Source: Bacillus rhizoplanae | GTDB lineage: Bacteria; Bacillota; Bacilli; Bacillales; Bacillaceae_G | Assembly: GCF_917563915.1 (NCBI RefSeq) | Contig: NZ_CAKJTI010000012.1 | Span: 28,016-92,015, forward strand | Reading direction: 5' to 3' | DNA: 64,000 bases | Shown here: piece after piece, positions 18,673 through 27,667 of the stretch | Numbering within the stretch: position 1 is the stretch's first letter | Layout of the letters: each line of letters opens with the position of its first letter | Translations under genes and position numbers: made by a program | The notes under the pieces: generated by a model | What the model saw: only the letters and a program-made list of their open reading frames with translations | What the model was told of the DNA's origin: nothing | Database searches by the model: none

Positions 18673-20568
18673 TTACTTTTTTCTAATTTCTTGTTGTATT
18701 TTTCTTAATGCTTTTTTAGAACCTCGTTCTATATCATGTTGTAACTTTCTCTCTTTATAACTTACAAATAACGTATTTAAATCATAGCCTTCTGGATACA
18801 ACTCTGCTGCTTTCAATTCCAGAATAACGCGCTTACAATTCACTTCAATAAACTCTTCTTTGTATAGTCCTACAATATTATTGAAACTATCTTTTTTCTT
18901 GTATACAATGCCGTAATCATTGTGATCTAATAATTTTACTTTGTCTCCAATCTCATACTCATAAATTTCTTTCGTTTTCACCGCATTCACTTCAGGCTTC
19001 TTTAATTTATTTTCTCTTACTAGCTCTAAGCTATAATCTTTATTTTCCATGTAACACTGTGCCCGTTGCAAAACATTTTCTCGTAAATTCATCTTCCTCG
19101 AAATCCAAAGTGCGTTGCTATCTCCGGACTCTCCAATAATTAACTTATACATAGGCTCTAATGTTTCATTATTGAATTGCATAGCCGCATTCATGAAGTC
19201 ACTGTGAATTTCTGAGAATCGTTTAATTTCACCATAATGAGTCGTAGCAACTGTTATACACCCCATATGATAAAACTCTTCTAAAATGGCAATCGCAAGT
19301 GCAGCACCTTCATTCGGTTCTGTACCACTACCAATTTCATCAAATAACAACAACGTATTATTGTTAGATATCCTCATAATTTCTGAAATATTTTTCATAT
19401 GTGATGAAAATGTACTTAAAGCATTTTCAATACTTTGATTATCACCTATATCTACAAAAATGTGATCAAAAAGTGCAATTTCCGTCTCTTCATCACCATG
19501 AATATGAAACCCTGACATTGCTGCTAAAGTTAATAATCCAATTGTTTTCAAGACAATTGTTTTTCCTCCAGCATTCGGTCCCGTAATGACTAAACTGCGA
19601 TATTCTTTTCCAATCTCAAAATTTAATGGAACAATCTCACCTTGTAAAAGAGGATGTTTACATTCAACTAGTTTTATATATCCATGACTATTTAATTTCG
19701 GTGCTATACCATCAATACTCTTACTAAATTTAGCTTTCGCGAAAATCATATCATATTGACTTATAAGCTCAATATTGATTTTTATATCACTAACATTCTC
19801 ACGAATCATTCCTGATAAAGTCGCTAATATTTGATACTCCTCTATCACCTCTTCCGCTTTTAAACTCGCCAACTCCCCGCTTAATTTGGAAATAACAGCA
19901 GGTTCCATAAATACTGTTGAACCTTTAGAAGAAATCTCTACAATTGTTCCTGCAACTTGATTTTTATAAGAAGCCTTAATAGGAACAGTATATCGATCAT
20001 CTTTTTTACTAATAAAGAATTCTTGAATATACTCCTTATTTGCACTACTTTTTAAAAATTTATTTAAGCGATCTCCAATCTTTTCTTCTGTTGTTTCAAT
20101 ATGATTTCGAATTCGCTTTAATTCTTTACTTGCAGCAGAATCAACTCGATTCCCTTTAATAGAAAAATGAATCTCTTCCTCAATATTTTTGAACTCTGAC
20201 ATAGAGTATGCGTAAGAACTTAAAACAGGCGCAAAAAATGCTTTACTTAACATGAATCCCTTAATTTTTCTACATCCTCTTAAAAAATCTGATATGCTAA
20301 CTAATTCTGTTGGTTCCAAAATTATTCCTTTTTCAAGCTTTCCAATGATACCTTCTATATTAGAAATTCCTATCAATGGAACGTGACTCTCTGTATTTAA
20401 AATTGATTTTGCTTCAGTCGTTTCATTTAATCGATTCTTCACTACTTTCATATTTGAGCTTGGCTGCAATTTATCTAATAATTGTTTTCCTAATCCACTT
20501 ACACAATATGACTTTACAATTTCCTTTAATTCGTTATACTGCAATTTTTCAAATGTCATGATATTCAT
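18673..20568 (-). CDS. MutS2-like ATPase without Smr nuclease domain
   Basis: This 631-residue protein of the MutS2 branch starts at the ATG with GAGGAG 7 nt upstream (MNIMTFEKLQ). It shows the MutS2 lever and clamp region (about 120-290, with DDRYTVPIKASYKNQ and SSKGSTVFMEP). An ABC-type ATPase follows, with Walker A TGPNAGGKT and Walker B LLLFDEIGSGTEPNEGAALA. A short KOW-like segment (YEIGDKVKLLDHNDYGIVY) and a basic tail end the protein. Standard MutS2 is about 780 residues and ends in an Smr endonuclease domain; that domain is absent here. MutS2 is known in B. subtilis to act on collided ribosomes. The attenuator-type leader in front suggests induction by translation stress, so a ribosome-rescue role is my inference. 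Confidence 0.88.
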   Translation of the reverse strand: MNIMTFEKLQYNELKEIVKSYCVSGLGKQLLDKLQPSSNMKVVKNRLNETTEAKSILNTESHVPLIGISNIEGIIGKLEKGIILEPTELVSISDFLRGCRKIKGFMLSKAFFAPVLSSYAYSMSEFKNIEEEIHFSIKGNRVDSAASKELKRIRNHIETTEEKIGDRLNKFLKSSANKEYIQEFFISKKDDRYTVPIKASYKNQVAGTIVEISSKGSTVFMEPAVISKLSGELASLKAEEVIEEYQILATLSGMIRENVSDIKINIELISQYDMIFAKAKFSKSIDGIAPKLNSHGYIKLVECKHPLLQGEIVPLNFEIGKEYRSLVITGPNAGGKTIVLKTIGLLTLAAMSGFHIHGDEETEIALFDHIFVDIGDNQSIENALSTFSSHMKNISEIMRISNNNTLLLFDEIGSGTEPNEGAALAIAILEEFYHMGCITVATTHYGEIKRFSEIHSDFMNAAMQFNNETLEPMYKLIIGESGDSNALWISRKMNLRENVLQRAQCYMENKDYSLELVRENKLKKPEVNAVKTKEIYEYEIGDKVKLLDHNDYGIVYKKKDSFNNIVGLYKEEFIEVNCKRVILELKAAELYPEGYDLNTLFVSYKERKLQHDIERGSKKALRKIQQEIRKK

Positions 20569-20607
20569 TTCTGTTCTCCTCACTGTGATTTAATAATTGA
20601 ATCATGT

Positions 20608-20813
20608 ATGAAGATACCTAATAATAAGATTTCAATGAGTTTCTATAAAGTGAAAATAAAAAAAGCTACGGGGATACCGTAGCTTTACATACATTTACAA
20701 GACAAGTGTAAAAACAAGTATCTATCATTAAACAAACCTTTTTCAAATAAAGGTCTAGGTCTTTAATAATAAATACCGCTACATGCTTTATAAAGTGTTG
20801 TAGGTATCTTCAT
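20608..20813 (-). promoter_or_regulatory. Structured leader with long-range 13-nt inverted repeat around the attenuator
   Basis: ATGAAGATACCTA at plus-strand 20608-20620 and its exact complement at 20801-20813 enclose the leader terminator. In the RNA the upstream arm can instead join a local hairpin (ATACCTACA with TGTAGCGGTAT). A second hairpin (ACCTTT / AAAGGT) lies between. These mutually exclusive pairings are what a transcription attenuator needs. The alternative folds were judged by eye only. Confidence 0.6.
20657..20686 (-). terminator. Leader terminator (attenuator) upstream of the MutS2-like gene
   Basis: On the minus strand AAAGCTACGG and CCGTAGCTTT form a perfect 10-bp stem with a 5-nt loop, followed by TTTTTTT. 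It lies between the promoter at 20988-21016 and the start codon at 20568, so readthrough is needed for gene expression. Confidence 0.85.
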
Positions 20814-20905
20814 AGGTAACTTAAATAAATCCATGACCGAATACAGGGTATATATTGATATAAAAAATACCCTTCATCATCAGATTTATTTAATTAAATT
20901 TTTGC

Positions 20906-20929
20906 CTATTTAGATACTACTCCACTCAC
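20906..20929 (-). CDS. Leader peptide ORF, 7 residues (MSGVVSK)
   Basis: GTG AGT GGA GTA GTA TCT AAA TAG is preceded by GAGGTG with a 5-6 nt spacing. It lies about 50 nt after the predicted transcription start and 220 nt before the leader terminator. Short translated leader ORFs of this kind sense ribosome stalling in front of antibiotic-resistance genes. Translation is inferred from the ribosome binding site and position; such a short ORF has no statistical support on its own. Confidence 0.5.
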   Translation of the reverse strand: MSGVVSK

Positions 20930-20987
20930 AAAAAGCACCTCGTCTAATTTATTTTTTTATTCTCATTGAAATCTAAATTATGGAATT

Positions 20988-21016
20988 ATTATACTATATG
21001 TACAAAATCAAGTAAA
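20988..21016 (-). promoter_or_regulatory. Sigma-A promoter for the MutS2-like leader
   Basis: On the minus strand the -35 is TTTACT (21011-21016) and the -10 is TATAAT (20988-20993), with a spacer of exactly 17 nt. The start would lie near 20981, giving a leader of about 410 nt. Confidence 0.75.
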
Positions 21017-26834: not shown

Positions 26835-26971
26835 ACTATCCCCCTCATTTCTATAATTTATAACAATGAAATATTCAACAAAATATATGTATGTCCTTGA
26901 TAACAAAAACATCTATTGGAAGAATTACTAATTACACTCTTGGTTACACTTCATAATGAGGTGAAGTGTAC

Positions 26972-27667
26972 GTGGCTAGACGGAAAACCTATAAAAATAA
27001 AGCTGCAGCAAATGTTATAGCAGTATTTTGGTTCATCATCGCTGGAATCTTTTTATATGGACTGTATTTATTTGCGGGCTTTCTCGATTATTTAATCGAT
27101 GAAATACGAAATAAAAACATCTTTATTATCTCTTCACTGATGACAAGTTCGATTATAGGTTTATGGCTCTTTTTCAGATCTGTAATACAGTATTTCGAAC
27201 GGCAATCTGCATTGATTGAAGAAGCTGAAGAGAGATTGAAACTAGAAGAAATACGAAGAATAGAAAGAGAACGTAAATTACGTACGTTGGAAGGTCTTCG
27301 TGACATGGATCCATTTGATTTTGAGGAACTTGTGGCAGACATTTTCCGAAAACGTGGATATAAAGCTCAAGTTACAAGTCGAAGTAATGATGGTGGTAAG
27401 GACATTATTTTACGTAGAAATGGCCAGGTGGCTTTCGTTGAATGCAAGAGATATAATGCGAAGAAAAAAGTTGGTAGACCAGACATGCAAAAATTTCATA
27501 GCGCTCTAGTAGACGCAAATGCCAATAAAGGTTATTTCGTCACGTCTAATGAATTTGCAAGCACTGCACAGGAATATGCAAAAGGTAAAGGGATACAACT
27601 AATCGATGGAATAAAACTTTTAGAAATGATGGAGAAAAATTCGAAATATGTATTATCAAAAAAATAA
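26972..27667 (+). CDS. Membrane-anchored Mrr-type restriction endonuclease domain protein
   Basis: Start is the GTG at 26972, 8 nt after GAGGTG; a GTG at 26966 is too close to the binding site. The 231-residue product has two membrane helices (about 15-38 and 45-70), a charged linker helix and an Mrr-family PD-(D/E)xK nuclease domain from about 105. The motif is seen in SNDGGKDIILRRN and FVECKRYNAKKKVG, with a Gln in the last helix. Such anchored nucleases act on modified or foreign DNA in some systems, but this one has no partner methylase. It is monocistronic, ending with a hairpin at 27665. Confidence 0.87.
   Translation: MARRKTYKNKAAANVIAVFWFIIAGIFLYGLYLFAGFLDYLIDEIRNKNIFIISSLMTSSIIGLWLFFRSVIQYFERQSALIEEAEERLKLEEIRRIERERKLRTLEGLRDMDPFDFEELVADIFRKRGYKAQVTSRSNDGGKDIILRRNGQVAFVECKRYNAKKKVGRPDMQKFHSALVDANANKGYFVTSNEFASTAQEYAKGKGIQLIDGIKLLEMMEKNSKYVLSKK

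Follow-up and report, generated by a model that had tools for sequence, protein, structure and literature searches.

A 64,000-nucleotide stretch of Bacillus rhizoplanae DNA (contig NZ_CAKJTI010000012.1, positions 28,016 to 92,015; hereafter the window) carries a gene for a short MutS2 paralogue lacking the Smr domain, preceded by a structured leader with a seven-codon upstream open reading frame (uORF) and an intrinsic terminator. We read the leader as a ribosome-sensing attenuator that keeps this gene off until a ribosome stalls, with an antibiotic as the likely trigger and a product that probably splits drug-stalled ribosomes, and give this reading a probability of about 0.74. The attenuator had been proposed in an initial annotation of the sequence; it is now supported by the conservation of the uORF and of the leader, by covariation, and by a folding test in which the uORF was masked as if occupied by a ribosome. 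The anatomy and conservation of the leader, the covariation of most of its helices and the energetic switch at the terminator were all obtained by computation.

Conservation of the uORF and the terminator

A single scan of species genomes yielded 86 matching relatives of the short gene, and 80 loci were kept. These are 50-77% identical and come from Bacilli (including Enterococcus and Aerococcus) and Clostridia. Locus L063 was dropped for having no upstream DNA, and L013 was dropped from the protein alignments for a stop in its translation. An MS-type uORF with a preceding Shine-Dalgarno sequence (SD) was found in 76 of the 79 relatives having upstream DNA, and a terminator-like hairpin at most 350 nt before the gene in 66 of them. 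A lack of conservation of both elements in other strains, which the initial annotation had named as evidence that would count against it, is thus not what the comparison of leaders across homologous loci revealed. When closely similar detectors were applied as a control to the DNA before the full-length mutS2 genes in 20 of these genomes, a terminator was present in 3/20 and an MS-type uORF in 1/20; three other stretches of the loci (78-79 each) gave 11-20 terminators and 3-8 MS-type uORFs. The control terminator detector was a slight rewrite of the one applied to the relatives. The uORF search covered 650 nt before the short gene with a distance of more than 200 nt, and 500 nt with no distance limit in the controls. 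The uORF pattern required Ser at codon 2, which is therefore present in the counts by construction, and candidates with an inner stop as well as four look-alike peptides were removed from the uORF set by hand.

The uORF has exactly seven codons in 67 of 77 leaders (window included), and the leaders fall into two classes. In class I (40 leaders, counting that of the window), the uORFs include MSAVVSK, MSVVGSK and MSGVVSK, and Ser2 is encoded by AGT or AGC in the 30 uORFs of seven codons. Class II (37 leaders) has MSGVGIN, MSVVGIN and similar peptides, all 37 of exactly seven codons, with TCN for Ser2. That one residue is encoded from two unconnected codon boxes speaks for selection acting on the peptide, with the reservation that Ser2 was itself a requirement of the search.

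Three loci were without an MS-type uORF (L055, L059 and L080). The copy in the genome of L080 carries an internal stop. L055 and L059, both from Anaeromonas, have, some 150 nt upstream of the gene, a 19-codon uORF (ending VGVRRLNK/R) whose 18-nt complement lies downstream; inspection by eye showed an SD-covering hairpin and no terminator, and this leader is perhaps a translation-type attenuator. Two unannotated contigs of a phage collection, labelled as Enterococcus and Listeria phage (L111, OR846605.1; L112, OR846885.1), also carry a short mutS2. Their uORFs, identified by eye, read MSVVGI and MSVAGI, and the contigs may be host DNA. A 42% identical short mutS2 (L145/L191) has the leader uORF MSVTGI, and its terminator is separated from the gene by about 400 nt that look repetitive.

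The promoter, the seven-codon uORF with its own SD, the structured leader and the perfect terminator before the start codon, all listed in the initial annotation, were confirmed in the sequence (Table 1). The leader has a folding energy of -116.8 kcal/mol versus -76.0 ± 5.5 kcal/mol in shuffles (z -7.4). Terminator-like sites number 4 in 5 kb versus 1.5 ± 1.4, and promoter-like sites 29 versus 24.0 ± 5.1 in shuffles, so that a lone promoter motif is at chance level. Of 76 related loci, 74 have a hexamer pair with at least 9/12 matches ahead of the uORF, mostly at a constant distance per leader class, this figure being the best of a scan in A+T-rich DNA with no shuffled control. The main start is probably the ATG at 20568 (631 aa), which makes the mechanically listed open reading frame (ORF) from the GTG at 20583 (636 aa) five codons too long.

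Table 1 Features of the leader and of the short mutS2 gene in the window
Feature	Position	Strand	Basis or remark
Promoter TTTACT-17-TATAAT	20988..21016	-	TTTACT 21016-21011, 17 nt, TATAAT 20993-20988
Segment A, AGATTTCAATGAG, 5' arm of long-range helix A:A'	20962..20974	-	13 pairs with 20639-20627
SD of the uORF, GAGGTG	20936..20941	-	Sequence
uORF, 7 codons, M-S-G-V-V-S-K-stop, GTG start	20906..20929	-	MS-type uORF conserved in relatives
uORF 3' half, partner of B' (anti-antiterminator P1)	20905..20920	-	Pairing counts
Hairpin P2, inside P1	20823..20891	-	Fold; AAATAA / TTATTT arms by eye in alignment A1, uncounted
Segment B', CCTATGAAGATACCTAC, master segment with three alternative partners	20800..20816	-	Reverse complementarity, pairing counts
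Intrinsic terminator	20662..20686	-	Ten mismatch-free pairs, loop TATCC, run of seven T
Segment A', CTCATTGAAATCT	20627..20639	-	Exists in read-through RNA only
Segment C, AGGTATCTTCAT, pairs with B' or, via TCTTCA, with the main SD	20608..20619	-	Pairing counts
Main SD, GTGAGGAG	20576..20583	-	Sequence
Smr-less MutS2 paralogue, 631 aa (MutS core, ATPase, KOW-like domain, conserved basic tail)	18673..20568	-	

Competing helices and the terminator switch

In class I, segment B' is the whole or partial reverse complement of three elements: the 3' half of the uORF, the GGTATC of the terminator, which is its antiterminator partner, and segment C preceding the main SD. Covariation was followed in an alignment (A1) of 31 of the 40 class I leaders, the 9 in which segment A was unrecognisable being left out; as the leaders are mutually related, the shuffle counts given below are not to be taken as probabilities. 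The uORF:B' helix was paired in 94.1% of the cells, compared with 35-51% when slid. The B':terminator helix together with P3 was paired in 88.5% (25-48% slid), with five pairs changed on both sides (2 and 3), a number found in 0/500 shuffles. For the long-range helix A:A', 93.2% of the cells were paired, with five both-side pairs in the 31 leaders, and for B':C 93.0%, with four. Taken jointly, these two helices reached 93.1% (36-46% slid) and had nine both-side pairs and 16 both-side cells (0/500 shuffles). Pairing of C with the main SD amounted to 94.5% (47-79% slid). In class II (18 leaders), the RNAalifold structure pairs the uORF with a downstream TACCTAC in 98.3% of the cells versus 26-47%, with 40 both-side cells (0/500 shuffles) and eight both-side pairs (15/500). 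Here GCA (Ala) for GTA (Val) at codon 4 is accompanied by G for A in the partner in four rows, and three rows show the U-G intermediate. The uORF is thus part of an anti-antiterminator, with which an antiterminator competes.

We then compared folds with a free and an occupied uORF. In the nascent RNA folded up to the terminator loop, B' formed on average 12.5 bp with the uORF and 0.03 bp with the terminator. With the uORF masked as if ribosome-bound, B' paired with the 5' half of the terminator (mean 6.8 bp), and the increase was 2 bp or more in 31/31 leaders. Shuffling the terminator 5' half (plain letter shuffles, five per leader) lowered the mean to 2.7 bp, the real value being higher in 29/31 leaders. 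A ribosome footprint with the P site at codon 1, 2 or 3 resulted in at least 3 bp in 30/31 leaders, at codon 5 in 26 and at codon 7 in 24. Drugs that stall initiation and drugs that stall elongation thus fit equally well.

A fold that flips under any ribosome that lingers, as in 24-30 of the 31 leaders, would equally suit a uORF that senses, in the manner of amino-acid attenuators, a shortage of charged tRNA (e.g. for valine or serine) or generally slow translation, which would place the gene in a broader starvation or translation-stress response instead of an antibiotic response. The richness of the uORF in Val and Ser points the same way, as does a section heading in PMC9226507 according to which VmlR is also induced by translation defects. 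We nevertheless regard this explanation as rather unlikely: codons 3, 5 and 6 differ between leaders (Ala, Val, Gly, Ser, Ile, among others) and do not resemble a repeated single regulatory codon, and no conserved neighbour ties the gene to amino-acid metabolism.

Under the ribosome-sensing attenuator that we favour, a uORF that has been translated and vacated would pair through its 3' half with B', so that the terminator would form and transcription would stop. A ribosome lingering on the seven codons would free B' to pair with the terminator 5' half, which would permit read-through. In the read-through RNA, A:A' would close the leader, and B' could engage C, the segment that otherwise masks the main SD, adding a translational control. 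The physiological trigger is likely an antibiotic under which ribosomes stall at initiation or shortly afterwards. It is covariation that suggests the translational layer, which is less certain than the terminator switch.

Several observations weigh against this interpretation. With the detector used here, 13/79 relatives had no detected terminator. The choice of class I rows partly by a recognisable segment A favours the A:A' helix. For uORF:B' in class I, covariation is weak: its two both-side-changed pairs were equalled in 84/500 shuffles, and sliding by +1 and +3 columns gave four and three such pairs. Covariation of C with the SD was no higher than in shuffles in the 31 class I leaders. 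As the fold flips with a ribosome at any tested codon, the anatomy is silent on which drug, or whether any drug, is involved. In the full read-through RNA at equilibrium (28 rows; L050, L061 and L005 left out), masking of the uORF increased B':C in 5/28 and freed the SD in 5/28; the SD thus mostly stays covered, and the window leader was unchanged in this fold. Finally, the protein is missing Smr, a helper in the recruitment of MutS2 to collisions.

A MutS2 paralogue with no Smr domain

The paralogy and the domain make-up of the protein likewise come from computation. The window protein matches TIGR01069 (MutS2) with 572.6 bits (cut-off 400). Walker A (330-337) and Walker B (406-418) are present, with G330, N332, G334-T337 and D410-E411 invariant in 37 rows, and a KOW-like small barrel follows the ATPase. 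No match was found in the window protein to the Smr domain, the profile alignment stopping at MutS2 column 520, or to the coiled-coil linker of MutS2. We therefore classify it as a MutS2 paralogue and not as a canonical MutS2. It shares 45-77% identity with the aligned members of its own clade and 37% with full-length MutS2 (profile alignment). The protein alignments contained 36 relatives (34 of the 80 loci and the two phage-collection contigs), and the C-terminal model was aligned with VIA-align. A full-length MutS2 is also present in 20/20 genomes checked. At the position of the Smr domain in MutS2, there is a conserved basic C-terminal tail (window residues 590-623, LYPEGYDL...RGSKKALRK). 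Identity with HflXr was rejected: the protein belongs to the MutS family and is not an HflX-family GTPase.

B. subtilis MutS2 is described as splitting collided ribosomes, and in the same source its Walker B mutant is sensitive to erythromycin and its KOW or Smr mutants very modestly so (PMC10897456). This pattern agrees with a splitter able to work without Smr. Because the MutS2 ATPase and the KOW-like domain are kept, the short protein probably splits drug-stalled ribosomes, as proposed for HflXr, and might confer resistance. PMC11633108 argues for additional splitters besides MutS2 in B. subtilis. A 'MutS2' of E. faecium is reported to be upregulated under sub-inhibitory chloramphenicol (PMC12441150); which copy is meant is unstated there, and we did not count this result.

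The present name of the gene product, endonuclease MutS2, would be correct if the protein acted on DNA in anti-recombination or repair and the leader merely tied it to stress. The MutS-family fold is compatible with such a role, and older literature presents MutS2 as a putative anti-recombination endonuclease (PMC3410868). We consider it improbable, as the Smr domain is missing, the Pfam matches to MutS domains are confined to III (below cut-off) and V, ribosome splitting is the activity now ascribed to MutS2 (PMC10897456), and the leader appears to be ribosome-sensing.

Distribution of the leader and known systems

Covariance models were made of the class I uORF-to-B' part (R1) and of class II (R2, built on 18/37 class II leaders with a recognisable AGACTGCTT, near-copies removed). 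R1 matched 25/299 genomes of one order and 11/398 of the class (32 distinct loci), and R2 matched 5/299 genomes; stricter filters lose the weak matches, and several matched genomes are sources of the models. In 37/37 R1 and R2 loci, the next complete ORF was closer to the short protein of the window than to any of 20 full-length MutS2. These downstream proteins share 68-79% identity (42% for the weakest match), and 36/37 of the ORFs have 628-670 codons with the RGSKK tail, one (G380) stopping at 535. The leader was thus found on no other type of gene. The largest neighbour-gene family occurs in 10/80 loci, and no operon partner is conserved beyond a few kin, so leader and gene seem to travel alone. 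For the neighbouring DEAD-box gene, the best-scoring DNA match in 398 Bacilli genomes had 71% identity. An ORF elsewhere in the window (26966-27667, + strand) resembles what we take to be an Mrr-type restriction endonuclease. Megablast against plasmid and phage records detected no copies of the window DNA.

More distant short MutS2 genes (L113, L158 and L159; 36-39% identity) occur in Cytobacillus and Paenibacillus records filed as plasmids; the tree position of L113 is unsure (long branch). Their uORFs, MLGVVLN, MSVNVLN and MTTGVLN, have seven codons on unrelated RNA, each with a perfect 11-12 nt downstream complement.

Rfam gave no family at gathering score within the window, and in the loci of eight relatives a single match up to E 1, sub-gathering and outside the leader. 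A riboswitch or a protein- or small RNA-bound element with an incidental uORF would suit the large and elaborate structure and, given the Rfam result, could have a novel ligand, yet it is very improbable, as uORF length and Ser2 are conserved although the codons are unrelated, the uORF itself forms a helix strand, and seven-codon uORFs persist in relatives with unrelated RNA.

From these sequences, the recurrence of the leader-gene pair in many Gram-positive bacteria points to a possible undescribed natural response to ribosome-blocking antibiotics. By analogy with vmlR, cplR and hflXr, translation inhibitors are the likely inducers, and the protein likely counters them. A wider proposal falls just short of an even bet: that Firmicutes widely possess, in addition to housekeeping MutS2, a family of ribosome splitters dedicated to the antibiotic response ('MutS2r'), that its seven-codon leader peptides (MS-x-V-x-x-N/K, with the relatives on unrelated RNAs) are a new drug-dependent arrest motif, and that the HflX and MutS2 families were independently recruited into the same circuit. 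In the literature compared here, dedicated antibiotic-response ribosome splitting is tied to HflXr; a second, unrelated splitter family under similar control would indicate that the strategy is a general one. The labels 'endonuclease MutS2' and 'mismatch repair' that such genes carry at present would then have to be replaced, and the leader could serve as a natural reporter of the drug, whichever it is, to which the uORF responds. Which MutS2 domains suffice for rescue without Smr is a testable point. Among the open-access matches listed, with bioRxiv and most subscription papers outside the scope, no paper had a title or abstract dealing with an attenuator for MutS2 or with a short MutS2 that responds to antibiotics.

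The window locus resembles the HflXr/rli80 attenuator as described for Listeria lmo0762 (PMC6310831), where a duplicated splitter copy is likewise under a uORF attenuator and the other copy is retained. The HflXr protein is an unrelated GTPase, and its uORF has 14 codons with an RLR motif (PMC6310831), whereas the window locus combines a MutS2-family ATPase with a seven-codon uORF lacking RLR and may have a translational layer. The leaders of vmlR (PMC9226507) and cplR (PMC10201436) are described as consisting of a uORF, an anti-antiterminator or uORF hairpin, an antiterminator, a terminator and an SD-covering hairpin, individual strands having more than one partner; the window leader has a like layout, in which covering of the SD is a possible part. 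Their uORFs have three codons (MIN and MRI) instead of seven, their ABCF proteins act on drug-bound ribosomes in a different way, and the long-range A:A' helix is absent from the descriptions compared (PMC9226507, PMC10201436). B. subtilis MutS2 (PMC10897456; PDB 7qv3, 8r55) shares with the window protein the MutS core, the P-loop ATPase with Walker A and B, and the KOW-like domain; the window protein differs in having no coiled-coil match and no Smr, and in ending with its conserved basic tail.
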